Of a DNA stretch of 64,000 bases, positions 38,449 to 63,398 are shown piece by piece; position 1 is the stretch's first letter; each line of letters opens with the position of its first letter. The stretch spans positions 620,001 through 684,000 of the forward strand of contig NW_008805066.1 in the NCBI RefSeq assembly GCF_000004825.1, given 5' to 3'. The notes beneath the pieces are model-generated. The model saw only the letters and a list, made by a program, of their open reading frames with translations, was not told where the DNA came from and searched no databases. Made by a program: the position numbers and the translations under genes. The stretch is from Heterostelium album PN500. Lineage: Eukaryota; Evosea; Eumycetozoa; Acytosteliales; Acytosteliaceae.

Positions 38449-38815
38449 TAAATCTCTAACCAAAAAAAACTTTTCATTTTTCATTTTTTTTTTTCCCAAT
38501 GCACACAAAAATCAGATATTAAAAATTTATTTAAAACAATCAATATTTGTGTGTGTAGCAAGAAATACAAAGATAAAAGAGAATGATTGGCTGAGATAGG
38601 TGAAAACTTTGTACAAGTATCCAAAACAAGTAAGCTCTTATGTTCATCTTCAATACTCAAACTACATCATTATCACTTTCTATCACAACATATACTATCT
38701 TTTCATCTTTCATTGTTACTCATACACTTTCATCCTTATCAGTAGCTATTTTATTTCTTTCGATTCATTCTCCTTTACTTTATCCATCTATATATTATTC
38801 TTTGCTGCTTTCATA

Positions 38816-40121
38816 ATGTCGCAACAACAACACCCACCGTTCACTTGTTGGGTAGAGTTTAGTAACAAGAAAGACGAACTCACCTTCGAGAACACCGCCA
38901 ACTATAATCGTCTCATCCCTGTCATCAGAGGTTCCAAACAACTCGCTGTAGGTGACGGTTCTATCGATTTGTTCTCTGATGCAGCCAAGACCATTCAACT
39001 TGATGTTGAGACTCCAGTCGATAGGAATCTTCAGCGAATCTATGTCGCCACCACTCAACCACTGCAAGGTAAGTACATCTACCTTCAAGTCTACAAACCA
39101 ACCACCTATGATACTAACCAGCCCACTCCTCATATTCTCCTTCTCCCTTTTGTTATCTTGTCTTGTACTATATTTACACTATCTTCTTCTCCTTCTCTTT
39201 CTTCTCGCCTCTCACACCGCTCATTACCCTACCAATCATATTACTTCAATCGTTTCCTACACTCGTTTCCTACACACGTTTCCTACATACACACACATAC
39301 ATACATACATACATACATACATCTACAAAACACTATTACCCATCAAACCTAAATATCCTTCCGAACTCTCTAACTAACATATTACCTTCTATCACTTCTT
39401 TTTCTACCCTTTTCATTCTCTTTTTTTTCTTTTTATCTTTCACTCTCTTCTTATCTTGTCTTGTATTATATTTACACTTTCTTCTTCTCCTTCTCTTTCT
39501 TCTCGCCTCTCACTCCCCTCATTACTATACTGCATTACCTATTTCTCATGTTCTTGTCTTTACACCTCTCTCTTTTCTTCTCCCTCTCCTTGTTCACAAC
39601 TCTCACACCTCTCATTACTCTCTACCAATCATATTACTTCAATCGTTTCTTACAACCTATTCATACACACCCTCTCACGCTTATCCACTACATATTCTTA
39701 CAAATATTACTTTCTTCTTCTACTTATCTTTCTTCATACACTTCTCCTCTTCTGCCTTCTCACATTCTCTCTCTCGCTCATCCCTTCTTTCATTACTCTA
39801 CCAAACATATTATTACTTCACGATTACCTACCCATTCATACACATTCCTTCTGTCTCTTCTTCTTATCTTTCTTCAAATACAGCAGCACCTCAGCAACAA
39901 GGTATGTACACATCTACAAATCGCATTAACACAATCAAACTATCTCTTAAGAACTGCTTACTAACCTATTCCACCTTGTAGAGGCAAAGATTGATCGAGC
40001 GTTATTTCTTTTGGAAAAGATGTCAAAATCATCAAAGGCTTCCTACTCCATTGAAATGATACATACTGTGTTGAAATATGAAATAATTCTATTGATGAAT
40101 GGATCTAAAAATTGTTTTTAA
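38816..40121 (+). CDS. Chimeric truncated Crinkler-type gene: header plus linker only
   Basis: Exon 1 (38816-39068, 84 residues) encodes the same header as the gene at 53.95 kb: FTCWVEFSNKKDELTFENT, then a ubiquitin-like stretch ending TPVDRNLQRIYVAT. A long pyrimidine-rich intron follows, then an 18-base exon (39884-39901, APQQQ) and an exon at 39982. That exon is nearly identical to the start of the last exon of the gene at 61.5 kb (AKIDRALFLLEKMSKSSKAS) but switches to unrelated sequence near 40045 and closes at 40121. The predicted 136-residue product has a header and no effector domain. The left half of the intron matches the 54-kb copy and the right half the 61.5-kb copy, so the locus is a mosaic. 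Assignment to CR/Crinkler proteins rests on the header and on the architecture of its relatives. Confidence 0.6.
39285..39322. repeat. ACAT tetranucleotide repeat in intron
   Basis: A run of CATA units inside the first intron of the chimeric gene. The paralogous intron at 54417-54448 has the same repeat with fewer units, so it has changed length since duplication. Confidence 0.8.
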
Positions 40122-40185
40122 TAAATAATATTAAACTATAGAATATATTAATAATTACCGTTACTCTTAAATTCTAATTCTCCAA

Positions 40186-41003
40186 CAAAACCAGCTATAT
40201 GTCGTTCAGAAAATAAGAGCATCGTCAATGTTATCAAATGAAATACCAAAGATTCATAGAAACATTTCATATCTATTTGGTTGGAATCGAGATGTCTGTT
40301 GGACATTTTACAATTGAAGGTAAAATATACAGTAGAACAGAAGAACAATCTCTTCTTGCAAAACAAGAGATACAACAACAAGTGAAAGTGGCCATCAATG
40401 AATTCAGTCATATCAATCATTTGGTGATTTGTGATTCAATGCAAGAGGGTAGAGACGACTTCAATCAGATCAATGCAGACAGCAATCATACAAAATCTAA
40501 AAACTATATCTTTGCACTTGACTATTTGGAGTTTGTCGAGCAACTTAGAGTTACTAGAGAATCAGCAAATCAGAAGTTTGATATCCATCTCAGTAATGAA
40601 ATGCAAAAGTATTGGATCGTTTTGGGTTGTCCAAACACTGAATATAAGTACCTATATTCAGAAGATTAAGAGGAAGAAGATAATGAAAAATCAGAGAATG
40701 TCAAAGTAGAAGAAAAAGAAGAAAACACGAAAATTGGAGATAATAAAGAAACAATTAATGACAATATAATTTCTAATAAGAGGTGGATCAAGATCAATCA
40801 AAAGACATTGCTGAAAAAGACAATATCTGCGACAGTGATGACAATGATTCTGATAATGATGAAAATGATTCAGATTACTCGAGAAATGATGATGAAGATT
40901 ATGAAGACTATTTTGATGACTCTGCATTCGAAGACTCTGAATATGAAAAAGATGATGAAGAATCTTTTATTTCAGTTAAGATAGAATCAAATATAAATAA
41001 TTA
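40186..41003 (+). pseudogene. Truncated copy of the neighbouring F-box-like gene
   Basis: Sequence from about 40186 to 41003 matches the 3' third of the gene at 41385-43271, including VGIEMSVGHFTIE, RTEEQSLLAKQEI, DDFNQINADSNHTKSKNY and the acidic tail EDYFDDSAFEDSEYE. The N-terminal F-box and LRR-like parts are missing. The frame 40238-40669 is open (143 residues) and ends before the acidic tail, which is present further on in another open piece (40783-41004). It looks like a decayed tandem duplicate. Confidence 0.75.
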
Positions 41004-41384
41004 AAATAATTTTTTTTTAAAAAAAATATAAATAGATAAAAAATTAAAAATTTGAAATGTTTTGGTAATTTTAGTTGGTAATTACAAAATATTTTTATTT
41101 ATTTAATTAAACATGTTTAATGATAAATTAAATACTTAAAGTTATTTATTTATATTTTTTTAATTAAATCATTTACTTCAATTTTTTTTTTTTCACTCCT
41201 GAAAAGGATAAATATATTATTTCTTAATTGAATTGCATTAAAACAATTTTTTAGTTACCAGTAACGTTTTTTTCGCTATGTCGGTTTTTTTGCACTTAAA
41301 TTCTGGTTTATTTGACTTTTAACATTTCTACAAATACATTAGTGCAAATAAAAGCATTAATATTTATTTTTTTATTTATTAGAA
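41004..41384. other. Intergenic, AT-rich
   Basis: 381 bases of A/T-rich DNA, presumably the promoter of the F-box-like gene. No other structure is seen. Confidence 0.5.
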
Positions 41385-43271
41385 ATGTCTATACCTCCTT
41401 TAATGCAAAGTAAAATAATTAAATATCTATGTGAAAAAGGTGATGTGTGGATAGTGGAAGTATCTTTGGTTAGCAAACATTTCTTTAAAATCGTAAAAGA
41501 AATAATAGGTTCAAGCATTAGATTCGATTTTGGTATATCATCAAATAATATGCTTTCAAGTGGAAGTCATGAAGATGAAATTATTTTCAATAATTTTTGC
41601 AATGCTATCATTGATCTTATCATATCCATGTCTTTGTCTGATAGTGTTGGTGGTGCAGATGGTTCTACGTTGAGAGAACGGAAGATGTCATCTATGTAGC
41701 CATATCTTGAATTCAGGGGTTTCTTCTACTATGGGTGGAAGTTCTATTTAATTAAACAATTAGTGTTTGGATTTTGTTTATTTATTTTTTATTTTATTTA
41801 TTTTTCCCACCCAATTTTTAAAATTTAATTCCAAAAAAACTTTATAAACCTCACACAAAATTCATTTATTTGTTTCCCTTCCCATTATTCATACAAATAC
41901 ACAATTTATAGATACAAGAGTCAATTTTTTCTCTATTCTAAACTTAGAGAATTGACTGTGTATCATGGAGCTGACTACGGTGGAGAGAAATTTATCATCG
42001 ACAGCTTGGCCAAACTTCTCAAGAGTGCTCAATGGACAGAATGGAACAAAACCAAAGAACTTCAACATCTACCACGGATTAAAGTTAGGATGCTTCATTG
42101 TGATGGATATTCAAGTGAAATCAAATGGGTTTTGAAGAAAAATAGAGTTGCAAAATACATCAGTGAATTCAGTTTGTATGCCGATTTTGAGTGTGAAGAT
42201 TTAGGTCGCTTTAAACTACCACGAAGTTTGAAGAGATTAACCATCTTAGCTTCTGATGATATGGATAGTCTACCTTCAGATTCAATGCAAATCGAATATT
42301 TTCTTCAAGGATTAAGAAAGTGTAAACAATTGCAACATCTAAGCTTTCAATCAGGAATATTCGAACGATTACTCAGCAAGGAAAGTGGATTATTTTTTTG
42401 GTACATCATATCTCTAAAGAAACTAAAGAGTTTGGAGATTATCGGAATAGCCGAATCAATACGGGGGGTTGGATTTGGAGATGGTGAACCTGAATGGAAT
42501 GATCAGATCATCAATCATTTGAAAGCTCACAAACAGATCACAGAGTTTTCGTTTGGTTTGGCTTACAACATTGAAGTTTTACATCTTCAACAATACCAGC
42601 TATTGGAATATCTATTCAGTCAAGACTGTGTCGTTCAGAGAATAAAAGCATTGTCGATGTTGTCAAATGAGATACCAAAGATTCAAAGGAACATTCAATA
42701 TCTATTTGTTGGTATAGAGATGTCTGTTGGGCATTTTACAATTGAAAGTTTAGAAGGACGTTGTCGATACCCTTTAATGGAAATTAAAAGATACAGTAGA
42801 ACAGAAGAACAATCTCTTCTTGCAAAACAAGAGATAGAACATCAAGTTCAAGTAGCTATCAATGAATTCAATTATATCGATCATTTGGTGATTTGTGATT
42901 CAATGGAAGAGAGGAGAGACGACTTCAATCAGATCAATGCAGACAGCAATCACACAAAATCTAAAAACTATTTCTTTGCACTTGACTATTTGGAGTTTGT
43001 CGAGCAACTTAGAGTTGGAAGAGAATCAGCAAATCAGAAGATTGAAATACGTCTCAGTAATGAAATGCAAAAGTATTGGATCATTTTGGGTTGTCCAAAC
43101 AGCGAATATAGCTATCTAGATTCGGATGATGACAATGATTCAGATTACTCAAGAAATAATGATGAAGATTATGAAGAATATTTTGATGACTCTGCATTCG
43201 AAGACTCTGAATATGAAAATGATGAAGAAACTGCTATCTCTATAGAAATAGAATCAAATATTAATAATTAA
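41385..43271 (+). CDS. F-box-like, leucine-rich-repeat family protein with acidic tail
   Basis: Two exons, 41385-41695 and 41912-43271, joined in phase; 556 residues. The N-terminus IPPLMQSKIIKYLCEKGDVW, continuing VEVSLVSKHFFKIVKE, has the spacing of an F-box (leading Pro/Leu, then a VSLVSKHFFK helix). The middle has irregular leucine-rich segments (LPRSLKRLTILASDDM, LRKCKQLQHLSFQSG, LKKLKSLEIIGIAES), as in dictyostelid F-box/LRR families. The last 60 residues are highly acidic Asp/Glu/Ser. F-box proteins supply substrate specificity to SCF ubiquitin ligases (family knowledge); no substrate can be inferred. These families are expanded and species-specific, matching the truncated copy just upstream. 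Confidence 0.7.
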
Positions 43272-44078
43272 ATAAATATATTATTTTTAAACAAATAAAT
43301 TAAAAAATATAATTTAAAAATTTGATCAAAAAAAAAAAAAAAAAAAAAAAGAAATAGGAATTCTGATCATCTGACCTTGTACATTAAATGTGGAATAAAG
43401 TAATAAACTCTGATAATCAAGTACAATTATTTCATCTTTAGAGAAAAGTAAAAAGACATCCCCCAACAACATAGTATTAATGATATAATAATACAATACT
43501 GAGGTATGAATATATAGAGTTTGTTTTTTTTGTTAAAAGTCATTAATAGAACATATATTTAACAACCACCTATAACTTTTTCAAACACTGGTTCTAATCA
43601 CAATTAAAAAAATTATATTAAACACACACTCACAATGAAATTGTTGTTGAATATGATCTCACCCACCGTCTGATCTTAAAAAAATATTGTTATGTGTGAA
43701 ATTATATAATTTTGATCAACTTTTAAACAAACCACGCTCATACACATATATAAAAAAAGTTAAAAACAATGATTACAACAACTTAAACAAACTATCTAAT
43801 CAACCAATTATTAAAATGGTGGGTTTAGTTCAACCCTTAACTGTTTAAATCAATCTGTGAAAAGAGAGAGAAGTTTTTTATTATTATATAATTTAAAATA
43901 CAGAATAAAATCCTAAATTAAAAAAAAAAACATAAAAAGAAGAAACACACCAATAAACAAACTATTTTAAATAAATCCTTATTTATCTATCTATAAATTA
44001 TTTATATCTTTGTAATTATTATAATTGTTTCTCTATTTCTATTTTTATTTTTCACACAAAAAAAAACAAACACATAAA
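43272..44078. other. Intergenic with a 23-base A run
   Basis: 807 bases between the F-box-like gene and a tgr-like gene. An A23 run lies at 43328-43350, just after the gene, followed by A/T-rich DNA with CA-rich patches near 43560-43800. No gene or RNA is recognised. Confidence 0.5.
43328..43350. repeat. Poly-A tract
   Basis: Twenty-three consecutive A on the plus strand, 57 bases after the F-box-like stop codon. Confidence 0.9.
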
Positions 44079-45328
44079 ATGATTAAAAATATTTTATTAT
44101 TTTTAATTTTATATAATATTTATATATCGTGTAAGATTTACAAAAAAAATTAAATAAAATAAAGTGATTAAATAATTAATAATTTAAATCTTTTTTTTTT
44201 GATTTTATAGATGCGGCAAATATTACAAGTATAACATTTAATGGGAATGTTACTACCATTAGTGGAACAGACATTGGTAGCACAACGAAAATAAATGTTT
44301 TAGTTAGTATCGAGGGGTAGTCCTGCAACCATTCAAATATCTGACTTCACAGCCAATGGTGGTGCATTGCAATTTACGATTCCATCTGCTGTCGGTGTAA
44401 GAGGTACCATTCAGTTGGAACCGAGTGGAGTCCAAGCCGATTGGAATCCATTGCCTGTTGTCAGCTCTGTCAGTACCGCTCCGATCTCTGGTGGTACAAT
44501 CACAGTGAGTGGTAGCTATCTATCGTCTGGCAATGAAGCAGATGCAAACAAATCGACAATAACATTCCCACATGGCAAAGTAATCCAAGAGTACCAGAGT
44601 TCATCGCTTTCAAAGGTTGCCTATTTCACACTGACACCGAGTGTTGCCATTCTTTACTCTGGTGTTAATATCCCACTTACTCTGACTGTAAGAGGATTGA
44701 ATCAGACCGTTTTGTTCTCCTTTGATAAACCAAACATCACCGGTGAATCATATATTAACACTGGAATAGTATTGAACGGTGTTAACTTTGGTACCAATGC
44801 TTCATTAGTTCAATTGTATACAGACCAGACAAAAATAACCATTTCTAGTATAACCAACACTGCCATTACAATTCTCTACAGTGATAATCCAATTCTTTCT
44901 TCATCTGGAACTCGTTATCTTAATTTAACAGTAAATGGAAATGTTATCGATAAAATCTATACTTTAACAATACGTATGTATAGTTAGTTTATATCAAATA
45001 AGTAATAGTATTTATTAATATATTTATTTTTAAAATAGAAATACAAGTTCTAGGATATTATCAAATTCATGATAAAGGATACCTTTTAACCAATGTTCCC
45101 TTGACAAAAGCTGGAAAAGTATTGATTCAAAGCGAGGAAAGTGATTTCAATCCATATACCTCTCCATCAGAACAGGGTGTATCCTTCTCGTTACCATGGG
45201 ATGCTACTATCGGTAATACCACTATGACATTAAACATTGGTGCTGGTGCAACTATTATTCAGAACATTACCAATAATAAAAAATTAACTATATTTATATC
45301 TTCTAAACAAATATTACGAAAATTATAG
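44079..45328 (+). pseudogene. tgr-like IPT/TIG gene, disrupted
   Basis: Exons 44079-44130 (signal peptide), 44211-44973 and 45039-45328. Splice junctions look functional. The ectodomain shows IPT/TIG motifs: ITFNGNVTTISGTDIG, APISGGTITVSGSYL, and ESYINTGIVLNGVNFGTN, plus glycosylation sites. Near 44318 a run of four G shifts the frame by one base between KINVLVSIEG and SPATIQISDF, so the gene is a pseudogene or the base count is wrong there. The 3' end stops at 45328 without a membrane anchor, only 12 bases from the stop of a tgr-like gene on the other strand. This suggests a rearrangement cut off its normal end. Confidence 0.7.
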
Positions 45329-45340
45329 TCAAAATTTTAT

Positions 45341-46720
45341 TTAAATAAAAAGTAATATTATTATAATGGCAAAAGAAATTGAGAAATTAATATTTAATTT
45401 AATACCATATGATGCTCCCACTAAATAAAAACAATAAGAAGAGTTAGTTAATGAAAAAACTACTATTTAAGTGTGAGTGTTATACTTACAAATATAATCA
45501 TCAGTAATATATTGATTTCCAACAGTAATGTTCAAGTAAATTTTATCAGGTGTTCCAATCGATCTGTCGAACGTACAATAAATCTGAGAGAATGAATCTA
45601 CAAAGGGATTGGTACAAGTGATCATAGTGGAGTTGATAGTTGCCACTACTGAAAGAGGGTAGTTAAAGTTGGTACCATTGATAGTCAAGTTGTTCTCGTT
45701 GATTCCAACATCTTTGACAGTGGGTGCTTGATAGCTAAAGAACAATTTATCGGAAGCTGGATTTGTCACACCATTAATATAGACCAGAAGAACTGGCAGA
45801 TTGGAACCAGTTCCATTTCCAACGGTACAAACCAATTTGGTTGTATCCTTTGGTGTATAGGTATTCGAATGTCAAGTTTTTAATACTGGTCTTGCTTTGT
45901 TGTAGGAAGAAACCGTGGAATACCCAAATCACATCCACTCACTGGACAGGGTACATTACCACTTGTAATGTTATCGAGTGATGGTTGGATGGAGATTGGA
46001 ATGGTAATTGATGTAGATGCACACCACTCTCTATTTTTTTTTAATAATATCTCTAAAGAATGGTTCACATTGATTGGATTCGATTGAATATTTGAAATTA
46101 CATTCATTAGATTTACCAAATGAATAGATATAACTTGATGTTGGAGATTCTCGATGATACATCAAATTAGAAAACTGTAAATTTGTTAAAGGAATTGCAT
46201 TGAGATTGATTATTTGTTTGGTTTCAACATTGTATTTGATGAATCGTTTGTTTGTTGAATCTAATATGAAGAAGTTTCCATTGTTATCATGACATGCTGA
46301 CCATGGTGAAATATCAATTTGGTGATCTGTTATCGTTCTATTTGTTAAATCGAATTGAAATAGCTTATTTTGATCGTATGATACTGAATATAATGAACCT
46401 TTAAAGATATCCAATTGCTAATTGATAGTATGATTCAAATTTCATTGTCTTGATGTTGAATCGATCAATTCTATTCTTTACATTATAATTGATTTCGATT
46501 TCATTGATATTTTAATCCATTTGTATTTTTATATCATAAAGCTACTCAATGGTTTTTTGTTCGATCAAAAGAATATTAATAACAAGTGTCTAGAGTTAAA
46601 GGATATTTTCTTGATTTTACTATATTTTTTATCATTACTATTATATTGATATTCATTGTTTAAAGAATCTTGTGGGTCGACTGTTTTAGGCAACCAGTTG
46701 ATATCAATTCGGCCTTTTAT
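45341..46720 (-). pseudogene. tgr-like IPT gene with propeller-like N-terminal part, disrupted
   Basis: On the minus strand, in order: decayed N-terminal sequence (46720-46415); an open piece 46414-46031 reading IFKGSLYSVSYDQNKLFQFD and GNFFILDSTNKRFIKY, which looks like beta-propeller (NHL-like) repeats; a Cys-bearing piece NVPCPVSGCDLG; and an IPT region (45835-45490) with NNLTINGTNFNYPL and NPFVDSFSQIYCTFDRS. After a good intron, a last exon (45420-45341) ends in a hydrophobic anchor FSISFAIIIILLFI. The 3' part is well preserved. The 5' two thirds have several interruptions of the frame. Dictyostelid cell-surface proteins with this layout are probably adhesion or recognition molecules. Confidence 0.6.
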
Positions 46721-46732
46721 TCTATGTATAGA

Positions 46733-47224
46733 TGTATCTCTTCTCTAGTCTCTACTTCTGTGTGCTTTCATTGTTAGCTCTTGTCGCTAGATCTCTTTCT
46801 TTTTCTGTGATCGGTATGAATGAATCTATAGCACCACACCATGATTTAAATCCTGACTCGAATCAATTAAATCTTCTAACTCACTACTTTATTAAATATT
46901 CTTTATTAATTAGTCGATCAATATTAACCAAACTTTTGAAACAGTCAAAATAAAATTTAATATTTTTCAAACTATCATCTTAGAAATGAAAATAGCAATT
47001 GAAATTATAATTTCAGAGTTGTATATTGATATAATTATTTCTGGAAAACTTTATAAATAAAAAAGAAATTATCTTTAGATTTTGAAATAGGATTTATTTA
47101 TTGTAATAATAAAAATAAATAAATAAATTAATGAATATTAAATAAATATATATTTTTTGTTTATGTATTTTTTCGTTTTGTTTTTCAATAAATATTAGAA
47201 ATACATTCTGATTAATGAATATCA
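46733..47224. other. Intergenic, no gene seen
   Basis: About 490 bases; a short frame at 46732-46953 has no supporting motif. The rest is AT-rich and lies 3' of the I29 gene. Confidence 0.5.
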
Positions 47225-47941
47225 TTATTGTTTATCAATTGGAACTGAACGAGCAGTAATTGATTGATGCTTTGATCTTCTCCACTTGAAGATATCGATA
47301 CCTCTTGATTGATGTTTCATTTGAACTTCTTCCTTTGGTGATGTTTCAATCTCGGCTGATGCAGATCTACGTGATCTGACAACGGCAACGGTTGCTCCAG
47401 CAAAAACTGCAAAGGCAGCAGCACTACCAACGGCAATGCCAACAATCGCTCCAGTTGAAAGTCCAGCAGCGGCGGCAGCTTCAGGTGCCAATGATGCATC
47501 AACACCAGTGTAAACTGCTGAGAATTGTTCAAATGATAAATCACTGAATTGATTTAACTCCACTACAAATAGAGAGAAAATTAATTTATTTATTCTTGTT
47601 TTTAAAAAAAATATATATATTAATTATATTTACTTACTCATTGGGTAACTTTCAGATGGGAATGAAATGATTGGGTCTACAGCAGAAAGAACTCTCATGT
47701 TGGAACTATCTGGAACTTCGATATGGACATTTGATCCTGACCAGTTGTCGTTTGCCTTTTGGATCTTTACAAGATTCTCCTTGAATGCATCGAATGCCGC
47801 TTGATAATCTGAACTTAAATATTGTTTTCCATAGGCTTCCACATAGTTTTTGAAAGCAGTTTCAAAGTCATACTCAGTACCTTGTGAGTTTGCAATTGCC
47901 AATAAAGTTGTTAAGCAACAAATAAAAAATAAGACTTTCAT
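47225..47941 (-). CDS. Membrane-anchored cathepsin propeptide (I29)-like protein without a protease domain
   Basis: Two exons on the minus strand, 47941-47638 and 47562-47225, in phase; 213 residues. A signal peptide (about 1-19) is followed by an I29 inhibitor-type propeptide. FETAFKNYVEAYGKQYLSSD and AAFDAFKENLVKIQKAN form the ERFNIN-like helices, and after the intron come ELNQFSDLSFEQFSAVY, the conserved propeptide end. In normal papain zymogens the peptidase would start next. Here instead there is an Ala-rich segment, a transmembrane helix (GAIVGIAVGSAAAFAVFAG), a basic stop-transfer RSRR and a basic cytosolic tail. I29 propeptides keep cathepsins inactive and help them fold (family knowledge). 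It could inhibit or chaperone a protease in trans, perhaps the one encoded head-to-head at 48996. Confidence 0.82.
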
Positions 47942-48995
47942 TCTTTAAGTATATAGTAAATAAAATTATGAATAAATAAAAATAAATTGAATTGATTGGA
48001 AAAGTATATCTGTATATATATATATGTTGTTTTAGAAAATAAACCCAATAGTTATCTATTATTAGAGTTTTTGTTTAATATAATTAAATGCCTGGTTAAA
48101 AGTAGCCAAAAAATATGGAACCATCTGGAATGGATTTAATCTTTTGTTTTGGTCCTATCACTATTTACTATTTGGTTTTTTTGTTCACGATTTTCATAGA
48201 TTATTATTTGTAATGGCTCAACGGAGGGTTTAAGTTTTTTTTGTTTAATTGTGACCGTTTTAATTCGATTGACGATATCAAAGCATATCGGAATGGCAGC
48301 CAATTTAAAGAACCAAACTTACAATGATGGCTTGGTAAAAATGAAACTATCCCCATTACACACAAAAAGTTTAACCGGATATATTATTTATTGTAGTCAC
48401 AGTAGCCCAATAAACTATAAAAAAAGTCAAAAAGTTGTTTTTGCTAGCACTTCTATCTTAAAGATATTTTTGCACCCCATTTCCATTTTTATTTTTGCCA
48501 TTTTTTTTTTTCCACACACCCCCTTCTTTAACAATTATGGTTTAATTTAATGATGCACTTTTATATGATCAACTCCCAAAAAAAAATATCGAAAGTGCAC
48601 TTTAATTAAAATGATCTAATTTATATTTCGATATTTTTCTTTTCAAAGATGAAGAGAAAAAATTTAATATCCCCGTTTTTTTATTCAAAATGCCATAACA
48701 AATGGCTTGCTTGGCTTTTGAAAAACACACTGACTAATAGTAGGAAAGTCAATTCACCGATTTTGAGAGTACTAAGAAAGTTGGACCAATGAATTTAAAC
48801 TGTTATAAAAAATCCATACCCAATTACTATAAAATCTATTTTTAAAACTTAAACAAATTAGTTAAATTAATTTTTTCAATAGTATTTAAACAAATTGTTT
48901 ACGTTTTCAATTTTATATTTATTCAGTATTTAGAAAATAAGTAAATTTGTTGTAATATTATTTATTTATTTATTTTATTTTATTTTTGTAAAAAA
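47942..48995. promoter_or_regulatory. Divergent intergenic region between the I29 protein and the CAP-papain protease
   Basis: 1,054 bases separate the two start codons, so both promoters lie here. It contains AT runs, a less AT-rich middle part (48240-48480) without a convincing gene, and a T-rich stretch before the protease ATG. The 100-codon frame at 48251 has no known motif. Confidence 0.5.
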
Positions 48996-50234: not shown

Positions 50235-50883
50235 ACACCAAAATTGTATAACTATATATTCAAATCTTTATTGTTATTATTTAATATAATACAATCACCA
50301 AAAATAAAATAAAATTATTATTTAATTATTAATCATTAGCGGCGATATAAATTTAAACCAGTCAACGATTATTGTAATATTTTGGGTTACGACTCTAGTC
50401 ATACAATTATCAAAAACACCAAAAATTTTATAATTTTTTATTTTTAATAATATTATTTATCTACATTCATATCCATAATTCATATTAATAATTGTTAATA
50501 TCTTTAGATTCATGTGGTACCGGTTGGGCTGAAAATGGGTATATTTATTTGAGAATTCAATGATAACTGTAGCTTGGTATGTAAAAATTTCAGTAAGAAA
50601 AAAAAACAAGAGTATTTCTGCCAACAAGTCGGTGGCGTGACGATATCAAACAAAATGAAATACTATTGTTTTTTTTATATAATTATTAGATACTTTTAAT
50701 TTTAATTTACACAGTTAATCGTTATCTTTATAAATTATTTGGAAGTTGTTTTTTGAAAGTTTCTAAAGTAAGTTAGGAAAAAATAAAAACATTTTAAAAG
50801 TAATAATTAATTTTTTTTATCTGTTAAATAGGAATGTACATATACTTACTTGAGAAAGAGATTTGTTTTAAGGGAAATCTCCA
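50235..50883. pseudogene. Decayed repeats of a papain-protease 3' end
   Basis: Two fragments downstream of the protease resemble its last codons. At about 50338-50410 sequence related to the coding end at 50155-50220 recurs in degraded form (matching AACCAGTCAACGATTATTGTAA-type spacing, then GGTTACGACTCTAG). At about 50508-50575 another piece reads SCGTGWAENGYIYLRI, the C-terminal papain motif from a different paralog. They look like the last traces of former tandem protease genes. Confidence 0.6.
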
Positions 50884-53040: not shown

Positions 53041-53632
53041 TGTAATTCCAAGAGGTAAATGAAACAAGCTAACATCCAGCTATTACCATCCAATCCAGTG
53101 AACTATCCATTTCCAATCGTTATCATAGAGTTTGGTGTTCACTTCTCCGACTCAATCGACGAGCTGCCAACTATCTTGGAGAGACCACTGATATCCAATA
53201 TATGATATGTTTCTTCGCTATCCAAATCAGAACTTTGAAGGTGGACCGACAAGTACAACAACATTTTCTGCATTAGCTCTTTTAAAGCAGAGATGGACCA
53301 CCTGACATAATCCGACCATTTCAACACAAGTTGTTTCGTTTGATACGAGACCCTTCGACATTGGTCAAACAATGGAACAGATTCTTCAACTAGGTGTGAG
53401 TCAAGCATCAATACTTGGCAATAAACAACCGATTACAATCAATCCGTATGTACTCGCAGTTATTCCCTCCTGTTTTCAATATATACTCAAACTACATAGT
53501 GCGAATGTATTTAATAGAGTTCCTCCTCCTGTCGTTCCTCATGGTTTTCCTCCCTCTATAGATATAGATTTGATAACAATCAGAAATTTGATAGAGGAAA
53601 CACAGAAAATAGACAAGTTCTTATTAAAATGA
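53040..53632 (+). pseudogene. Remnant of a possible PD-(D/E)XK nuclease-like protein
   Basis: Plus-strand pieces follow one another: YPFPIVIIEFGVHFSDSIDE, LRYPNQNFEGGPTSTTTFSA, VVSFDTRPFDIGQ, then an open 86-codon frame (53372-53632) with NKQPITINPYVLAVIPS and PSIDIDLITIRNLI. The order recalls nuclease-like effector proteins of the PD-(D/E)XK superfamily found in fungi and amoebae, but the match is weak. The gene is broken. Confidence 0.4.
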
Positions 53633-53854
53633 ACTATTTAAAATAATAATAATCAAAATTTTCAACCAAAATCGTCTCAAAAGTTCTAAAAAATAAAATA
53701 ATATTTGTTAAATTAAAACAAAATAAAAGAGAAATAAAGATAATTTGTAATTTATATGTGGAGACTGTAATTAATAAGGATTTGAATTTTGATTTTTTTT
53801 TATAAAAATGTTTTGGTAGTGTCATTAAATGCTAAGTTTTTGTGATTATTATAA

Positions 53855-53892
53855 ATTTATACTGTAATTGATGTAGATGCACCACGTCTAAT
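53855..53892 (-). pseudogene. Short fragment of the tgr-like propeller/IPT gene
   Basis: GTAATTGATGTAGATGCACC recurs here almost as at 46001-46020 inside the minus-strand tgr-like pseudogene. It abuts the Crinkler-type gene whose shared sequence starts near 53928. Confidence 0.45.
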
Positions 53893-53950
53893 GTGATCTT
53901 TTTATTAAAATATAATTGATGTATTATTATTATTCTTTGCTGCTTTCATA

Positions 53951-56900
53951 ATGTCGCAACAACACCCACCGTTCACTTGTTGGGTAGAGTTTAGTAACAA
54001 GAAAGACGAACTCACCTTCGAGAACACCGCCAACTATAATCGTCTCATCCATGTCATCAGAGGTTCCAAACAACTCGCTGTAGGTGACGGTTCTATAGAT
54101 TTGTTCTCTGATGCAGCCAAGACCATTCAACTTGATGTTGAGACTCCAGTCGATAGGAATCTTCAGCGAATCTATGTCGCCACCACTCAACCACAGCAAG
54201 GCAAGTACATCTACCTTCAAGTCTACAAACCAACCACCTATGATACTAACCAGCCCACTCCTCATATTCTCCTTCTCCCTTTTGTTATCTTGTCTTGTAC
54301 TATATTTACACTATCTTCTTTTCCTTCTCTTTCTTCTCGCCTCTCACACCGCTCATTACCCTACCAATCATATTACTTCAATCGTTTCCTACACTCGTTT
54401 CCTACACACGTTTCCTACATACACACACATACATACATACATACATACAAAACACTATTACCCATCAAACCTAAATATCCTTCCGAACTCTCTAACTAAC
54501 ATATTACCTTCTATCACTTCTTTTTCTACCTTTTCATTCTCTTTTTTTTTCTTTTTATCTTTCACTCTCTCTCTCTCTTCATCTCTCTCTCTCTTTATCT
54601 CTTTCACTACTTAAATCCTTCTATTCAACTCTTTTACATACCACATATTTCCTCTAATTTGTATATAATTCCTCTTTTCATATATTGCGTGCCAATCAAT
54701 AACAACGTTTGTGACTAACAAACACTTGTGTCTTCTCTTTTCTTCTAATCTTTATTCACATACTTCCAACAACACATCTTCTTATACATATCACCTTCAT
54801 TCTTCCCTCATACCAATTCATACATATTCTCACTTTAAATTTAAATAGGCATACCACCAACATTGTCAAACATCAGTGAACATTTACAAAAGACATATGG
54901 GGATCCAAAGTCCACGGACAAGGTATGCTCTGACATCATCGTACGATGCGCACTATAACATCTAACTTACATTTCATTTAGTTCACCTATAACTTTACTC
55001 AATTTATAGGCCGACAAAATAATATTAATCAAATCGTATATGCAGTTTGTATGCGATTTAAGACCATGAAATCAAACATAAAGAGTGACCAAAGCATGGT
55101 GGTGATTGCTGGTCCCCCTGGAATTGGAAAGAGTCGTATCCTACAAGAAGTCCCTCGGCACTTGATATCAGCTGCTGAACTACCGAAACATCAGATCACG
55201 GTTGCTATCTCCTTCAGCAATGGTACACCTTTAGAGTCTACAGAGATGTCTGCTGGAGTCGCCATATCCACACGAATGCTGTACAGTTACTTTATTGGAG
55301 GACTCGGTGTCAGCTTCAAACACTTTATTAGCCAACTCGAAACCAAGTTCGTGTTGAGAGATCTCACTCCATCTTTGGCATTGTCTATCATTGTCGAGCA
55401 CTACAGATTAACAATCTCACCGGACATTGACATTGTCAATGACAAGGAACAATTGGCAAACTGGCAAAAACAACAACAGATAATGGTCTTGATAGCTTTG
55501 GACGAATTTCAGAAAGCACTCATTGAATCAGATGATCATCATATCAGGAGGTCATACCTCAAGAACGTTATACTGGAATTGTTGTCATTAAGCAAGCAAG
55601 ACACAACAACAACTGGGATCTCAACACCATCTGCTCTGTTGGAGAAAGGTACTTTTGTCTATATCATGACGGCTGGTACCATTCTTGAACCCATTGACCA
55701 TATCATCAGCAAGGATTTTGGATTACCATACACATTCATCTCGCTTCCTCTCTTGACAAGGGAGGAATCTCGTATCATTCTCTTTGACTTCCTCTCAAAG
55801 TCCTCTATGGGCAACACTAATTCTGGCAGAATTCCAATACCTCCATCATTCCTCACAACACTGGATACAACTGGGGGTTGGCCAAGACCCATTGAGCTGT
55901 TCTTGAGAACTCTTGTTACCAATCCTGCAGACATTGACAAGCCAAATACTCGACATGAGATCAATTGGACAACAATGGACGCCCCAGTTCGAAAGCTGTT
56001 CGAAGCTACTGTCACAGAGTTCGATCGCACATATCCAAAGCTAACCTATAAACCCTATTTCGATATTATATTGTCACATGCAATCACTGAACATCCAATA
56101 TTAGCTCAAAGTCCGCTTGATGATGCGCCTTCATACATGAACTTGCAAAGCGATGGACTCCTACTCCTCGAAGGCAACACAGTGCGGCTACCTTTCATCT
56201 TCATCCATGTCTACGCCATTCGCACCAACTTTAAAAGTCTCGTTCAGCTTACAAACTTCATCATTGATATGCGCCACGACGAGGAGTGGGAGACGTTTGT
56301 TGCCTTGTATGACTTCGTTAGAGGTGTTTGCTTTGGATATATTGGGGTAGTTCCAACCATCGATCAATACTACCCCAATGCCTACCTCTCCAACAGGACT
56401 TTAAAGGGATGTCGTATGAAATGCATCAATTGTAAGTACCCGCTGCAACTCAACAAGCTAACAATTCTAACCTAAATTCTTTACAGCTGGAGCACATATC
56501 TTTGCTCCTAAGAGGTATCCAGAGAGTTGCGAAGAGTGGGAAAAGAATATCATCAAGGATCAATTGGAAGAAGGATATTCTCTGTCTAATTCAAAAGGAG
56601 CCTTGGTTGACTTTGTTCTTCGCAGAAAGATCTGGATCAACAACAATTGGACTTGGATATGGATACTGGGAGACGCCAAGTTTACAAGTGACGACAAAAT
56701 CTTGGATTTCAATTCAGTGGTCAAGCCAGTCTTGAAGAAATGCGAAGAAGCCCATAAGAACTTGGTCCCTAAGAGTTCTGAGGGCCCCAATCAACCAAGT
56801 TCTGATGTGCCTTTTGGTTACATTGTCTTCATCCCAACAAACAAAAGACTAAGCGATAGTATCACTGCAATCAAGGATTATGACAATGTCATAATCGTGT

Positions 56901-56965
56901 CCAAGGAATACTTCAACTATTTCTCTAAACCATTCAGGTCTTTCCTTGAGCCTCTTGAAGAGTAA
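53951..56965 (+). CDS. Crinkler-type modular gene: header, P-loop NTPase, REase-like nuclease
   Basis: Exons: header 53951-54200, a small exon 54849-54922 (IPPTLSNISEHLQKTYGDPK), an NTPase exon ending 56431 and a last exon 56487-56965. The join between the small exon and the NTPase exon could not be placed with certainty. The header resembles the ubiquitin-like N-terminus of Crinkler (CR) proteins. The NTPase has Walker A GPPGIGKS near 55111 and Walker B LIALDEFQ near 55495, with an ASCE/AAA-like layout. The last exon has ALVDFVLRRK and WILGDAKF, the D and DxK spacing of a restriction-endonuclease fold. NTPase plus REase behind a Ubl header is the classic CR architecture (family knowledge from oomycete, fungal and amoebal CR proteins). 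The first intron starts with GC rather than GT and is pyrimidine-rich, shared with the 38.8-kb gene. Confidence 0.65.
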
Positions 56966-57955
56966 CAAAATTCACAATAGACCAACATTCCAACGTCAAA
57001 GTCATACAGCTATTTCACTAAATATGATAACCTTTCAATTTATGATGTACATAGACATCATAAAGACCAATTTGTAAATTAAACAATATAATTCATATTT
57101 TATTAATTTCTCGCAGCTCACTCTACACTAACCAATCCAACAACAATAAATATACTATTAAATCAATATTAATTATCACTCTATTTATCATCTTGAGCGA
57201 CTTCCAACCGTTTAGCACATATTCTTCTCGAATAAATTGGAGAAGAATATATTGATACAACCAATAAATTATCATTCCAAGATACCTACCTTGCCAATCT
57301 TTCATTTATTATATATAATCAGAATGGTCTGTAAGAGTGATGTTCTAGGAAAGCAGGTAACTTAGTGGTGAGAAGTTTGCAGTTGTTCCAGTGTTTGTTG
57401 AAGTTGTCGATTTGTTTGATATTCTGTTGGTATTTGAGTGCCAACTCTTAGTTGTTTGTGTTGGACCAGATGGTGGCCAAATTTTACTTTCTTTTTTTTA
57501 AACTTTATGTGTTTTCTTTTATCACAGTGTGATTTTCTTATTTATTTTGAATTAAGTGCTGAATGATCATTAGCAACAACAATAAAATTAATAAAAACTA
57601 ATAAAAAATTAAAGATAATGTAAATGATATAAATACACTTATAAAAGTGAAATGTTTATTTAATTATTATTCATTCTATTACCACTGACCAGTTTAGAAT
57701 TATTAGTTTATGTTTGTTAACTGCAGTCAATGAAGGGTTACTGGTTTGGTTCTCATCTGTTGATGAGGATGGTGTGTCGCAAGCGTTGGAAAATATAAAA
57801 AAAGATGGATTTAAAATCCACACTTTCAGGTGTAGGACTCTTATTAAATCTTCAGGTCATAAATTTTACAACACTTTATACCTACTTTCAAGAATCTATA
57901 AATATCATTTCAAAAAAATAACCATGACTTTATACCTACTTTCGAATGGAAACTG
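56966..57955. other. Gap with a dispersed repeat and degraded retroelement-like coding
   Basis: After the nuclease stop comes AT-rich DNA. A block at 57230-57345 recurs at 63403-63512. A minus-strand coding-like piece (57480-57345) reads LALKYQQNIKQIDNFNKHW. A plus frame at 57714-57956 of 80 codons is unrecognised. A 17-base direct repeat, actttatacctactttc, occurs at 57873 and 57927. Confidence 0.45.
57230..57345. repeat. Dispersed repeat, copy 1 (possible LTR fragment)
   Basis: About 110 bases starting AATTGGAGAAGAATATATTG and containing CAATCTTTCATTTATTATAT. They match 63403-63512 in the same orientation with scattered differences. Both copies lie downstream of a Crinkler-type gene, and the second precedes a gag-like frame. 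Confidence 0.65.
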
Positions 57956-58790
57956 ACAAAAGCAACAAGTTTGGTCGGATAGGTGACGGTAAGAGTAACT
58001 TGTGATCCTGGAATAGCAGTGAATTGAGTATTGGTAATACTGTGAGAATGGGCTGGAACCTGAACAGTTTGGGTGGTTATCTTGGTAGATTCGAGATTGG
58101 TAACTTGTTGAGTGAGTTTGTTGATTTGACCTTGCTACTCTTTGATTGCCCAATGTTTACTGTCTGATTGACCTGGAACGATGGTAGAAGAGATCGGTGT
58201 CTTGGATACGGCCAGGGTTGCTTGGAATATATCCGACGGGAGTGAGTCTGGGCGCGTGGTGGTAGGAAAGATGTCAGGAAACAAAGTGGAGGTTGATGGG
58301 ATTTGATCATTATTGTTATTGTTCTCGAGATCACTCATCGTGAGGTCGCTTGTATTAGTTGTTGTTGTTGTTGTTGATGTTGGATCTGAGGTGGTTGTGG
58401 TGGTGGGTGTTTCTATTAATTGTTCGTTTGGATCTGCCATCTCTCATGTGATTTGTAATTAATAATAATCAAGAGTTATTTCTAATAATCTAATTTTTAA
58501 CTTTATTTTTTAATACTTTTCTTATTTCAACATTCGCCGTCATGAATGTTGAATACTTTTTACTGTTGTTTTGAACTATTACTTATTTAGTTGATTTAAT
58601 TAATTTAATTAATTATAATTGACTGATACTATATGTTGGCTGGTGATTATTATTGATGTTGATTGATAGGTATTGATATTGTCTTGGTGGCTACCTTATT
58701 GTCCTTAGACGGACAACACCCAGGCACAATTTCAGGCACATCCTGAGTGTCCACAACCAGTATTTTGGCACTTCATTTTTGTATTTGTTT
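57345..58790 (-). mobile_element. Fossil retroelement-like remnant, minus strand
   Basis: A minus-strand frame starting at 58440 (MADPNEQLIETPTTTTT) encodes a Thr/Ser/Asn-rich leader followed by a coiled-coil-like segment (QINKLTQQVTNLES), in the style of a gag-type protein. Further coding-like sequence continues leftward. The region is broken, with several interruptions. LTR-type ancestry is inferred from composition and from the neighbouring dispersed repeat, not from a pol domain, which is absent. Confidence 0.35.
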
Positions 58791-58929
58791 TATTTGTTTA
58801 ATTTGATAATTAAAAACTAAGAATTTGATTTGTTTTTTTTGATTTGTTAAAAGTCAAATAAACCAACTAAAAACTTAAAATGTTAAAATTTAATTGATTT
58901 CTTAATTTTGAATCTTCTCAAAAAAATGG

Positions 58930-59230
58930 GATTGCTACACTATGCACATGTAGTACTTGTAAAGGAGAAAGTACACACTCTTCTTCTGAATCCAAAGAAG
59001 CAAAAACAACAACAACAACAACACCAACATCATCTTATTCCCCTATCAGTCTTCCAAACACTATAAAAGTTGATTATGTAGTGAATAAGCTTTTAGATTT
59101 CAAACAATGCAGAGGTACAAACTGTGTTGTTTGTAACCAAAAGATTACCAAATCTCCTTTTGGTAAGATTAGAATTGGTAACATGATAGTAATGCAGGAA
59201 ATCTCATGTAGTCGAAGTATGTATATATTG
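58930..59230 (+). pseudogene. Remnant with a zinc-finger-like cysteine motif
   Basis: A plus-strand open stretch reads LCTCSTCKGESTHSS, a Thr run, then VDYVVNKLLDFKQCRGTNC and CVVCNQKITKSPFGKIRIGN. The CxxC followed by KIRIG recalls PARP-type zinc fingers, but the histidine and flanks are not clear. No start codon or complete gene was found. Confidence 0.35.
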
Positions 59231-59391
59231 ATGACCGCCTTTGTTATGTTTTATTAACAATCCTATTAATTAAGGCAGGTGAGGCTACTCTTTTACTTTG
59301 CATTCTCAACAATTATGTAAATCTTGAGGAGCAAAATAAATGACAAGGTATTTAAATGAATGATTAATGTGTTGGTAAAAAATTCGATTAT

Positions 59392-59676
59392 TTAGTATTT
59401 TTTTCCTCCACGTCTTGATTTAGTTGTTGCTTTGGGTGCTGATTTTTTCTTTCCCTTATTATTATTATTTTCATCATCATCTTCACCATCACCATCATTC
59501 TCTCCATCATCATCATCATCTTCACCATCATCACCATCATCATCTTTGCTGACATTCTTTGTCTTTCTCTTCTTCTTTGGTGATGCAGAGTCATTTATAA
59601 ACTTACCTCTAGCAGAGAGAGCGACTAAGTATTTTATAAGATGATACATATTACAAAAGCTCTTTGTAACAACCAC
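59392..59676 (-). CDS. Short acidic/basic protein or gene fragment, unknown
   Basis: 94-codon minus-strand frame: VVTKSFCNMYHLIKYLVALS, ARGKFINDS, a Lys/Arg cluster PKKKRKTK (nuclear-localisation type), a long Asp/Glu/Asn run, and a basic tail. The open frame extends a little upstream (KYDEYIDGN), so it is probably the last exon or a fragment of a larger nuclear protein. Its neighbour at 58930-59230 could belong to the same former gene family. Confidence 0.4.
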   Translation of the reverse strand: MVVTKSFCNMYHLIKYLVALSARGKFINDSASPKKKRKTKNVSKDDDGDDGEDDDDDGENDGDGEDDDENNNNKGKKKSAPKATTKSRRGGKKY

Positions 59677-59679
59677 ATT

Positions 59680-60430
59680 ACCGTCAATGTACTCGTCATA
59701 CTTTTAATTCATATTAAAAGTGACTACTTTTTATCTGGTAAATTGTAGAGTTCTATAACTACCTTATTATTACTATAAACCTCTATTTTAAATGTTATTT
59801 AGATGTAATTTTGAATAAGGTGAAACGATTCTATCTAATTGATCATGTGCAACAGAATAATAAGGTTTAAACCTCTGGTACATATTTATCTATATTCAAT
59901 CCACTCATTATTCTCTATTCTCTAACATCAAGAATTCAATTACAGAAATAAAATAAAAATATAAACAACTAATTTACTTTTTATCATTATTAATAGTCAT
60001 GGCCACAATTTATAAGAGTTAGTCCAATTTTAGAATGGAATTATTCAGATATTTTGAAGTTTATTAGAACATTTAAAATATCTTTTTTGTGTTTTGTATG
60101 ATGAAGCATATACTTCGATAGGACATGTCAATGATACCATTCCAAACCCATCGTTATTAGATGTATCAACTGGTAAATATTTACCTGCATATCATTTGAA
60201 AGACGGTACTTTAGAGAGATCTGGTCGATTAAAAAAAGTACAATAATCAAACTATATAGTTAAATACTTTTACAAATATATTCACAAAATAAATCATGAT
60301 CTATGATGATTTTATATTTTAACAAATAAAAAATTAATAAAATAATGGATTCAGGTCTGAAAATCGAGTCCAAAGGAGTTTTTAGCAAGTGTAATCTTTC
60401 TATTTATATGAAAGATAATTAAACAAGCAA
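59680..60430. other. Gap with a small coding-like remnant
   Basis: AT-rich DNA. On the plus strand near 60096-60246 a piece reads EAYTSIGHVNDTIPNPSLLD and continues STGKYLPAYHLKDGTLERSG before a stop. It has no clear start and no recognised family; probably a decayed exon. Confidence 0.4.
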
Positions 60431-60437
60431 ATTATTT

Positions 60438-61070
60438 CTAAATACATTTCAAATAAATAATAATAACAATAAAAATCAAGAAAAATAAATTAGTTTTGCA
60501 ATTAGTTTGATAGATGCTTATCATTCCACTACTATATGGTGATTCTGAAGTAGTCGATATTATTTTAGGTGATTGGTAGACCATACTCAATCGCTCATTA
60601 CAGTTGAACTGATTCCGTTCAATTGAAGTTGCAAATAAGCGGATGTTCCACTTCCTTCTGGTGCAATACAGGTCACACTGGTACTGTTCAATCTCGTTGC
60701 ATTTGAACATGGAGTGTTAAGATTAGATTTGGTATCATAAATAATTACAGTGATATTCTCATTTCCTTGGATGTTGGAAGTCATATATTGACCACTGATT
60801 GTTACAACTCCACCTTGTGTTGGTGGTGATGTTATTGATGTGATGTATGGTTGAATTGTTATCTTAAATGGAACAGTTGGTGATGTGTTGAATTTGGTGT
60901 GTTTGTGGAAATTTAAATGTTAACATCGAGTCGGAAACGGAGATCGGTGACATTGGAGTACTACCATTGAAATGTAATATTATTGATGTTGTATCATTAC
61001 CAAATGATGAACCGATAATAATTGTATTTCCGTTATCTTGTGATACTTCTTGGACATTTGAAAGATCCTA
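60438..61070 (-). pseudogene. Inverted partial copy of the tgr-like gene at 31.8-33.8 kb
   Basis: The minus strand from about 61070 to 60438 matches the plus strand 33199-33839 nearly base for base, including PPTQGGVVTISGQYM-type sequence, CSNATRLNSTSVTCIAPEG, SGTSAYLQLQLNGISS and the hydrophobic C-terminus. Only the 3' third of the gene is present. At the IAPEGSGTS point this copy keeps the frame that the 33.6-kb copy has lost, but it is interrupted elsewhere. Confidence 0.8.
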
Positions 61071-61543
61071 TAAGTAATATGAATGTAATTGTGCATATAG
61101 GGAATAAATTCTAAGAGGTACAATTATCAGTGTTGAAATAGAATTTTGTCCTTTGGGCGTTGGTACAAGTAATAAAAAAAACATAGGATGTGTTTTTACT
61201 TCATTTTGCAAGCAATCTATATTCAAGTTCGTCACGATGTGGAAATGGAAAAACAAAAAAAAAAGATGTTGACCAAATAATCATAAACAAAACAACAATG
61301 ATTTATTTGTTATTTTTTTTGATTATGATTTTTATTTTTTGTTTATGATTTTTATTTATTTCAATTTTTTTAATTTTACCAAATTTAGAAATTTTCTTCA
61401 AAAATAGCTAAAAAAATGGTGGGTCAAATTTTACCAAGAAAAAAATATAAAGTGGGAGTAAACTCATACAAAATTCATTCATTTTTTTAATTCCTCTTTT
61501 CCAAACAAATAATAATTTATCTATACAGTTAGAGCTACAAACA
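61071..61543. other. Intergenic, AT-rich
   Basis: 473 bases between the tgr-like fragment and the third Crinkler-type gene, with T runs and repeated TTTATGATTTTTATTT-like units. It should hold the promoter of the gene at 61544. Confidence 0.5.
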
Positions 61544-63398
61544 ATGTCAGAGGAGCAAACAGAGCAGTCCCTTGCTTTGGTGCTCTCCAAGGCTGGTTGT
61601 ACGTCAATCACAGCAGCCTCATTACTTCTGAATGGCTACAAGACTCTTGATTCTCTCAAGGCTGCCGTCAACAATCCAATTGCATACCCAATGCTTCTTA
61701 TTCTTCAACCGATTCCATTCCTCCCTGCAGACATCACAAGTCTCATTGAATACTTCAAGAACACCTCGAACGAAACAGCACCAGGTATGTTATACATCTA
61801 CATCACAAAACACTATTACCCTTCAACCTAAATATCCTTCCGAAATCCAACTAACATATTACCTTCTATCACTTCTTTTTCTACCTTTTCATTCTCTTTT
61901 TTTTCTTTTTATCTTTCACTCTCTTCTTATCTTGTCTTGTATTATATTTACACTTTCTTCTTCTCCTTCTCTTTCTTCTCGCCTCTCACTCCCCTCATTA
62001 CTATACTGCATTACCTATTTCTCATGTTCTTGTCTTTACACCTCTCTCTTTTCTTCTCCCTCTCCTTGTTCACAACTCTCACACCTCTCATTACTCTCTA
62101 CCAATCATATTACTTCAATCATTTCTTACAACCTATTCATACACACCCTCTCACGCTTATCCACTACATATTCTTACAAATATTACTTTCTTCTTCTACT
62201 TATCTTTCTTCATACACTTCTCCTCTTCTGCCTTCTCACATTCTCTCTCTCGCTCATCCCTTCTTTCATTACTCTACCAAACATATTATTACTTCACGAT
62301 TACCTACTACCCATTCATACACATTCCTTCTGTCTCTTCTTCTTATCTTTCTTCAAATACAGCAGCACCTCAGCAACAAGGTATGTACACATCTACAAAT
62401 GGCATTAACACAATCAAACTATCTCTTAAGAACTGCTTACTAACCTATTCCACCTTGTAGAGGCAAAGATTGATCGAGCGTTATTTCTTTTGGAAAAGAT
62501 GTCAAAATCATCAAAGGCTTCCTACTCCATGTCCAAGATATCAGGAGTCAAGTGGACAGAGATTTCAGACTCTGCAAGGTTGAAGCTCAGAGATTCCAAG
62601 ATCACAGTGAAGGTGAAGAAAGGTGCAACCGCAGTCAACTATCAGTGGTTGAAAGGCGTTGGCGAAACACAACATATCGAGTTCGACGAAGAAGCTGCCG
62701 TGGATAATGACGAAGAGGAAGAGCAATTGAGCGTCATGGAATGGCTAGAAAGACACATTCCAATCGACCAAAAACACTTTGCCTATCACAATGTGAGCAA
62801 CGATGGATCTTTTTTGTTGGTTTCCAGCTATGCAGACTGCCTACCTTTCTCTCTCAAGGGAACAACAGCTATCATCATTGCGCCTCCACAACGCCATCGT
62901 GCTCTTCTCAAATCTCAGATATATGTGTGCATCGAACTCAAAAAGCCAGAGAACCTCGTGGACAACAGCTTCTATCAAGGATGGGCTCAACTCATTGCAG
63001 CATCAATTCACACTACGTCTCATCCCGTCATTCATTTGCTTACCGATCTCAACGAAGCATGGTACTTCTCATGGTGGAGTCACCCACTAGAATTGTCGCA
63101 TGCTTCTCTCAACAATGCTCAAGCCAGATCATTCATTCAAGAGTATCTTGGTGAATTCAAATCTGGATGGCTCGGTGGTGATTACAGCAACAATACTGGA
63201 TTCAAAGTTTGTGACGTCCAACCGAAACTCTTCACCTTTTCCTCAGTCAATCCTTCTCCAAAGGATGACATTGCTTCATTTGAAGACTTGGATGATGATG
63301 ACCGTCGTGAAGCTTTTGGCCTTCGAGCGCTCCAGCTTCTCCACACTCGATACAGAATGGACCACGAGGATACCCATTCACAGAGTTATTTCAGTTAG
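61544..63398 (+). CDS. Crinkler-type modular protein with PD-(D/E)XK nuclease-like C-terminus
   Basis: Three exons, 61544-61784, 62363-62380 (18 bases) and 62461-63398, all in phase; 398 residues. Exon 1 encodes an 80-residue helical domain (LALVLSKAGCTSITAASLLL), different from the header of the other two copies. The mini-exon adds Ala/Pro/Gln residues. Exon 3 begins AKIDRALFLLEKMSKSSKAS and ends with a nuclease-like region: YADCLPFSL (candidate D), IYVCIELKKPENL (ExK) and FYQGWAQLIAAS (Q-helix), the order of PD-(D/E)XK nucleases of the CR effector group. An acidic EEEEQ stretch lies between. The frame is intact. The 578-base first intron is pyrimidine-rich and nearly identical to the right part of the intron at 39.3-39.9 kb. 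Nuclease activity is inferred from motif spacing only. Confidence 0.75.

Follow-up and report, generated by a model that had tools for sequence, protein, structure and literature searches.

Probable exon shuffling inside a shared phase-1 intron of a modular gene family in Heterostelium album

Background

How do genes that encode unlike proteins come to share the interior of an intron? The question is raised by a 64,000-nucleotide (nt) stretch of DNA from the social amoeba Heterostelium album PN500 (contig NW_008805066.1, here C5, positions 620001-684000, in a genome of 32.93 Mb on 39 contigs), referred to below as the window and numbered from its own first base unless a contig is named. The window carries three genes, A (the 38.8-kb locus), B (54.0 kb) and C (61.5 kb), that have different coding modules and share intron sequence; other letters designate loci of the same family elsewhere. 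The original prediction read them as Crinkler-type (CRN) genes that exchange exons through shared pyrimidine-rich introns and so form a cassette system for building new CRN proteins. Taken as a whole, its observation is confirmed and its interpretation is partly supported. Intron exchange is the textbook idea for the origin of new multidomain proteins, and it is difficult to catch in sequence because introns decay. In this family the shared stretches are mostly more than 93% identical, and individual switches can therefore be mapped to tens of bases. The family has very probably undergone recent exon shuffling located in the intron, most likely via ectopic recombination between non-allelic copies.

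Structure of genes A, B and C

Pairwise comparison by blastn shows that A shares its header exon and left intron with B, close to the limits predicted (38789-39451 against 53925-54574, 96.7% over 665 columns), and that A 39309-40051 matches C 61792-62530 (98.1% over 746 columns). B 54433-54574 in turn matches C 61792-61927 (93.0% over 143 columns), and about 142 intron bases, where some 110 were predicted, are common to all three genes. Gene A had also been assigned the right intron part, mini-exon and start of the last exon of C; this holds for the intron and the mini-exon, and the last exon is like that of C only up to 40051, after which it continues in other sequence to a stop at about 40121. 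Gene A is thus a truncated mosaic.

Exon ends of the three genes were read by eye from the sequence, and all features lie on the plus strand. The header exon of A, of type H1, occupies 38816-39068 (253 nt, 84 codons plus 1 nt) and has 95-99% protein identity to seven H1 exons, those of B and six other loci, and 50% to an eighth. Intron 1 of A (39069-39883, 815 nt, 74% pyrimidine) consists of a left part, alpha, a core, beta, and a right arm, gamma. The core (39309-39451), delimited by the alignments and the genome search, is common to A, B, C and other family loci. A repeat of about 93 bases occurs first in alpha (39135-39227) and again in gamma (39433-39525), with 89% identity between the two. 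The intron is followed by a symmetric 18-nt mini-exon of phase 1-1 (39884-39901) and by the shortened last exon of module Nuc1 (39982-40121). Gene C has a header exon of type H2 (61544-61784, 241 nt), an intron 1 made of beta and then gamma (61785-62362), a symmetric 18-nt mini-exon of phase 1-1 (62363-62380), and a Nuc1 last exon that is open to its stop (62461-63398). Gene B joins an H1 header exon (53951-54200, 250 nt) through an intron of alpha, beta and a different right arm, delta (54201-54848), to exon 2 (54849-54922), to exon 3 with the P-loop nucleoside triphosphatase (NTPase) module NT1 (54982-56431) and to exon 4, a C-terminal module (56487-56965). As read from the sequence, all three header exons exit in phase 1, in agreement with the prediction, and the exons after the mini-exons of A and C resume in phase 1. 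The donor of intron 1 in gene B is GC, not GT (54201); locus D on C5 shares this GC donor, and the other aligned H1 copies have GT.

Exchange inside the intron

The core alignment took in 14 loci, 10 of them with a full right arm (P, I, D and U are without it). The core is followed by gamma in A, C, G, H and K and by delta in B, E, J, M and Q. Header H1 goes with gamma in A and with delta in B and Q; H2 with gamma in C and with delta in M; H3 with gamma in G, H and K and with delta in J; and H4 with delta in E. Each of H1, H2 and H3 is thus seen with gamma and with delta. This full set of six combinations amounts to a four-gamete argument within about 95 intron bases, and exchange inside the intron is therefore the best explanation. 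The four H3 loci (G, H, J and K) have a common 12-base deletion in the core, whichever arm is next. In gene A the switch from B-like to C-like sequence falls within 39372-39448, the last clean site shared with B being 39371 and the first clean site shared with C 39449; the T-run columns 39409-39420 were left out of these bounds, as the alignment is ambiguous there. The combinations across the core and the position of this switch bear out the predicted exchange inside the intron. Other intronic joins are of several kinds: locus O on C7 goes from the left part (alpha) to the right part (gamma) inside the 93-base repeat that is present in both, an H6 intron is joined to gamma in F, N and D1 and to alpha in E2, and in G and K gamma runs into a piece from the delta side.

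The family across the genome

A 131-base segment of the intron was found in at least 15 places in the genome and an 820-base intron query in at least 21, both counts being lower bounds; loci were merged in plus orientation without conflicts. All 21 of the listed matches to the longer query adjoin an exon of one modular family, and 20 of the 21 come after a header exon on the same strand; at locus L (C5, 1021 kb) the match is accompanied only by a piece of a downstream module. Of these 21, 15 are on C5 in the interval 601-1021 kb, where the window accounts for three; the other six are on C7, C12, C24 and C36. The segment thus extends beyond the three genes and stands beside varied modules, as had been anticipated; the family as a whole combines six types of header with about ten modules downstream. 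Header H1 occurs in 9 places (one at 50%), H2 in three close and two distant loci, H3 in 4 loci, H4 in three close loci and one distant, and H5 in 2, while exon 2 of H6 is found in 3 loci and its exon 1 alone in 2 further ones. The downstream modules are NT1, Nuc1, Nuc2, O, J, NT2, R, E1, E2 and N-type. Genes with this intron family display 16 header/module pairs: H1 with Nuc1, NT1, O, J and NT2; H2 with Nuc1 and J; H3 with NT1, Nuc1 and J; H4 with E1; H5 with Nuc2; and H6 with Nuc1, O, E2 and N-type. Three more pairs, in S, in R and in the C7 247-kb gene, are joined through introns of other kinds. Phase 1 is found at every readable header end, and the mini-exons of 12, 18 and 24 nt are symmetric; the exceptions are a changed donor in S and frameshifts in I1 and H. 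Header introns with shared sequence are 173-815 nt long and 69-77% pyrimidine (64-65% in E2 and I2), and the 55-81 nt introns of the same genes are 51-58% pyrimidine.

A number of further observations concern the surroundings of these loci. DNA downstream of gene A is duplicated close by in the window (40200-41055 and 42629-43325, 85-90%). A flank block (57109-57374; also 63403-63503) is found at 13 genome places, nine of which are close to family loci and four of which are on C14 (two, opposed), C15 and C9; it may be a repeat of some age or a terminator region that the loci have in common. On C2, from 1708681 on (L084 1501-3045), an O-like NTPase gene, with no header recognised upstream, is accompanied by a delta-arm piece, and its C-terminus resembles the E1 module that is joined to H4 on C5. 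At C7:246800-247650 (L087) an H4 exon shortened at its end is followed by a long CAT run and then by the module that stands behind H6 in locus N.

Protein modules and the Crinkler question

The Crinkler-type label found no support in comparison with known domains. Pfam contains a Crinkler model, and no match to it was found among 18 exon pieces scanned, with modules E2 and N-type outside the scan, or among the 9 H1 members. The label rests on resemblance and, since neither a Crinkler nor a nuclease model matched, the family is Crinkler-like only in layout. Header H3 passes the SAM_PNT profile (expectation value, E, 1.9e-6; 28.2 bits against a cut-off of 24), and exon 2 of H6 scores 20.4 bits on the same profile, under the cut-off. 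The NT1 module matches AAA_16 (E 1.2e-5, under the curated cut-off) and a piece of the J module matches AAA (E 4.7e-5, over the curated cut-off).

The nuclease-like reading of the C-terminal modules comes from inspection. A PD..EIK-like motif is seen by eye in Nuc2, with its D replaced in Nuc1, and a nuclease-like motif is likewise seen by eye in exon 4 of gene B, which has no Pfam match. Exon pieces of the nuclease module matched nothing in Pfam at E up to 1, and a nuclease alignment compared with Pfam gave only weak, unrelated matches. An AlphaFold2 model of Nuc1 (predicted local distance difference test score, pLDDT, 66.0; predicted template modelling score, pTM, 0.71) has a best Foldseek match in PDB of E 0.24, which is not significant; that of header H1 (pLDDT 41.7) is too poor for structural comparison, and sequence searches of PDB with Nuc1 and H1 gave no match at E up to 1. 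As these searches of sequence and structure gave no significant match, the nuclease and ubiquitin-like (Ubl) header readings are unproven.

Breakpoints and broken copies

Breakpoints had been predicted to lie in introns, and most of those inside genes do. With the 148 homology ends in flanks removed, 159 of 197 ends inside genes are intronic when clustered per locus, and 71 of 101 when clustered by surrounding sequence. Introns account for 33-34% of the annotated length, and intronic ends thus exceed the expectation from length; the nominal p-values of 7.8e-41 and 2.5e-14 are not to be taken literally, because copies inherit ends from one another and blast scoring affects where an end falls. 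Exon boundaries in these counts were set by hand, and exon length is only approximate because some modules were ended at their first stop. The prediction does not extend to the 30 of 101 clusters that are exonic, or to the ends in flanks.

If segments had simply been duplicated and deleted with breakpoints at random, such exonic and flanking ends would arise, and intronic ones would look common only because exonic ones break genes and decay. Incomplete or broken loci are indeed numerous (A, D, I1, K, L, M, T and others), and H1 copies differ in how far their homology reaches into the 5' flank. Random joining would hardly give three headers both right arms across one homologous core, however, nor would it readily put the gene A switch within the shared stretch, and broken loci (D2, I1, N) carry intronic junctions as well. 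It is therefore unlikely as an account of the mosaics.

Divergence and age of the shared intron

Unlike headers have like introns. Between the cores of five header types, identity is 97.5-100%, counted over the 80-93 sites that align; a further 1-15 positions are gaps. A shuffle control on the ten pairs of these types (200 shuffles each; last 200 nt of the exon, first 400 nt of the intron) gave scores of 15-23 for exons against 169-688 for introns. In 8 of the 10 pairs the exon score is at the shuffled level; in H1-H2 and H4-H5 it lies a little higher, with 7 and 5 of the 200 shuffles, respectively, reaching it. With a core that is not low-complexity, exons close to the shuffled level and introns scoring so high, chance is excluded as the source of the shared intron.

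The intron might instead be under selection itself, as a regulatory element, enhancer or non-coding RNA, with headers swapped non-homologously at the splice donor. It has not, however, diverged more slowly than its exons. Nuc1 exons of C, F and H are 99.3-99.7% identical and the adjoining 400 intron bases 99.0-99.3%; H1 exons are 97.2-99.6% and their first 90 intron bases 96.7-100%; and H3 exons are 97.0-99.1% and their first 110 intron bases 94.6-99.1%. Copies of the same module thus diverge about equally in both. Selection on the intron would fit the sharing of H2-H5 introns from a point within the first ~25 nt after the donor, but the gamma/delta switch sits at the opposite side of the core, broken loci (I1, D2) also hold core sequence, and Rfam has no match in 38500-64000; this explanation is very unlikely.

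A transposable element that carries header and intron pieces is likewise improbable, to much the same degree. It would account for the dispersal over C4, C5, C7, C12, C24 and C36 and for the flank block shared near nine family loci; against it, the intron is never away from family exons in the 21 listed matches, and no transposable element was recognised, although no systematic search for elements was made. Misassembly of near-identical repeats could also create chimaeric mosaics, as copies often 95-99% identical across hundreds of bases might suggest. This is extremely improbable, since one and the same combination is found at more than one locus, each copy with differences peculiar to it (H1-delta in B and Q; H3-gamma in G, H and K), the mosaics lie on several contigs with unlike flanks, and the core of gene A holds private bases of its own.

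As to age, the divergent header homologues W, V, X and AA have, by eye, a plausible phase-1 donor at the header end, and they are not among the listed matches of either intron query (131 or 820 bases). The phase-1 position is therefore probably older than the shared intron sequence, which would have spread afterwards.

A number of points weigh against recent exchange inside the intron as the whole account. The junction counts are not independent, their exon limits were set by hand and their p-values are nominal; and 30 of the 101 junction clusters are exonic. Exonic junctions are found in A (40051), in the truncation of M and in an internal deletion of T; the module of K is cut and fused to its own 3' flank, and N has a cut H4 exon. 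In locus H (C5, 858 kb) H4 is joined in frame to H3 without an intron and a frameshift follows, K has lost 1 nt in H2, M is without a start codon and S has a changed donor. The claim of in-frame mosaics accordingly stands as far as phase 1 keeps the frame, and not for A, which is truncated, or for other copies with frameshifts, stops or a lost start. Exons are open throughout for only 7 of the 16 header/module pairs (B, C, E1, F, G, P and U), the remaining pairs being represented by broken loci (e.g. A, H, M, E2) or by loci with an unclear module structure (e.g. J, N, O). None of the 9 H1 members matches any Pfam family at E up to 10, and splicing of the family introns is inferred. H4 and H5 may, on their exon scores, be distant relatives of each other. 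The AA intron opens with CATA-rich sequence that looks like a section of the shared intron, and some of the shared sequence may thus be older than supposed. Finally, the start of H2-H5 intron homology within ~25 nt after the donor indicates an older join near the donor that exchange in the core does not account for.

Proposed mechanism

Recent exchange through the intron is nevertheless the best explanation. The family layout would be an N-terminal header exon, a phase-1 intron, an optional symmetric mini-exon, and C-terminal NTPase or nuclease-like exons. Young dispersed copies would recombine ectopically, whether by crossover, gene conversion or template switching, which are indistinguishable here. 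The exchanges would resolve inside the first intron because this long pyrimidine-rich intron is the homology common to unlike copies, and splice sites and frame would survive because the header introns are in phase 1 and the mini-exons (12, 18 or 24 nt) are symmetric. Selection would favour products that keep the frame and remove many exonic ones. The shared intron, the mosaics, the phases visible in the sequence and the switch positions are observed directly; recombination via the shared intron homology and the selective loss of many exonic products are deduced from them. Many of the products of shuffling are broken copies.

The original prediction went further, to a cassette system for new CRN proteins, and nothing sets this apart from ordinary ectopic recombination followed by in-frame survival. 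An evolved recombination platform, in which the pyrimidine-rich phase-1 intron serves a germline cassette system, is a doubtful proposition; it would keep making combinations of a sensor-like header and an NTPase or nuclease-like effector that would serve this social amoeba in immunity or conflict, and the broken copies would be its donor reservoir. If intron-located shuffling holds true across strains, the family could be used to measure how often intron exchange yields working proteins, and would provide one way for header/effector repertoires to diversify beyond oomycetes and fungi.

Comparison with known systems

Exon shuffling through introns is known in kind. In PMC6564038, the massive exon shuffling of Tetrahymena leucine-rich repeat (LRR) genes is ascribed to ectopic recombination, and the likeness extends to a strong intron-phase bias and a young, lineage-specific family; what multiplies there is a single type of repeat exon, exactly 90 bp long and in phase 2, whereas here unrelated domains cross one long phase-1 intron. 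The SmPoMuc mucins of Schistosoma (PMC2576457) share conserved exon-flanking introns, ectopic recombination and pseudogenes proposed as a reservoir, but vary repeat units and exon variants in one gene family, unlike the unrelated N- and C-terminal domains combined here. Brown-algal ROCO genes, candidate immune receptors, also undergo phase-constrained exon shuffling; their 72-bp phase-2 LRR exons shuffle within an array, and the available portion of PMC11378527 describes no shared-intron exchange of unlike modules. Oomycete CRN effectors combine a header with varied NTPase or nuclease-type C-termini, and recombination is placed where the two meet. That border is a protein motif, HVLVXXP, according to the review PMC5289972, whereas an intron forms it here; none of the terms dictyostelium, slime, amoeb and intron occurs in the main text of that review. 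The literature searched, including the available parts of PMC6131194 and PMC3434034, gave no description of such intron exchange in a dictyostelid. The setting is new and unusual: unlike domains trade via one shared intron, and the surviving copies show every combination of three headers with two arms across one core.

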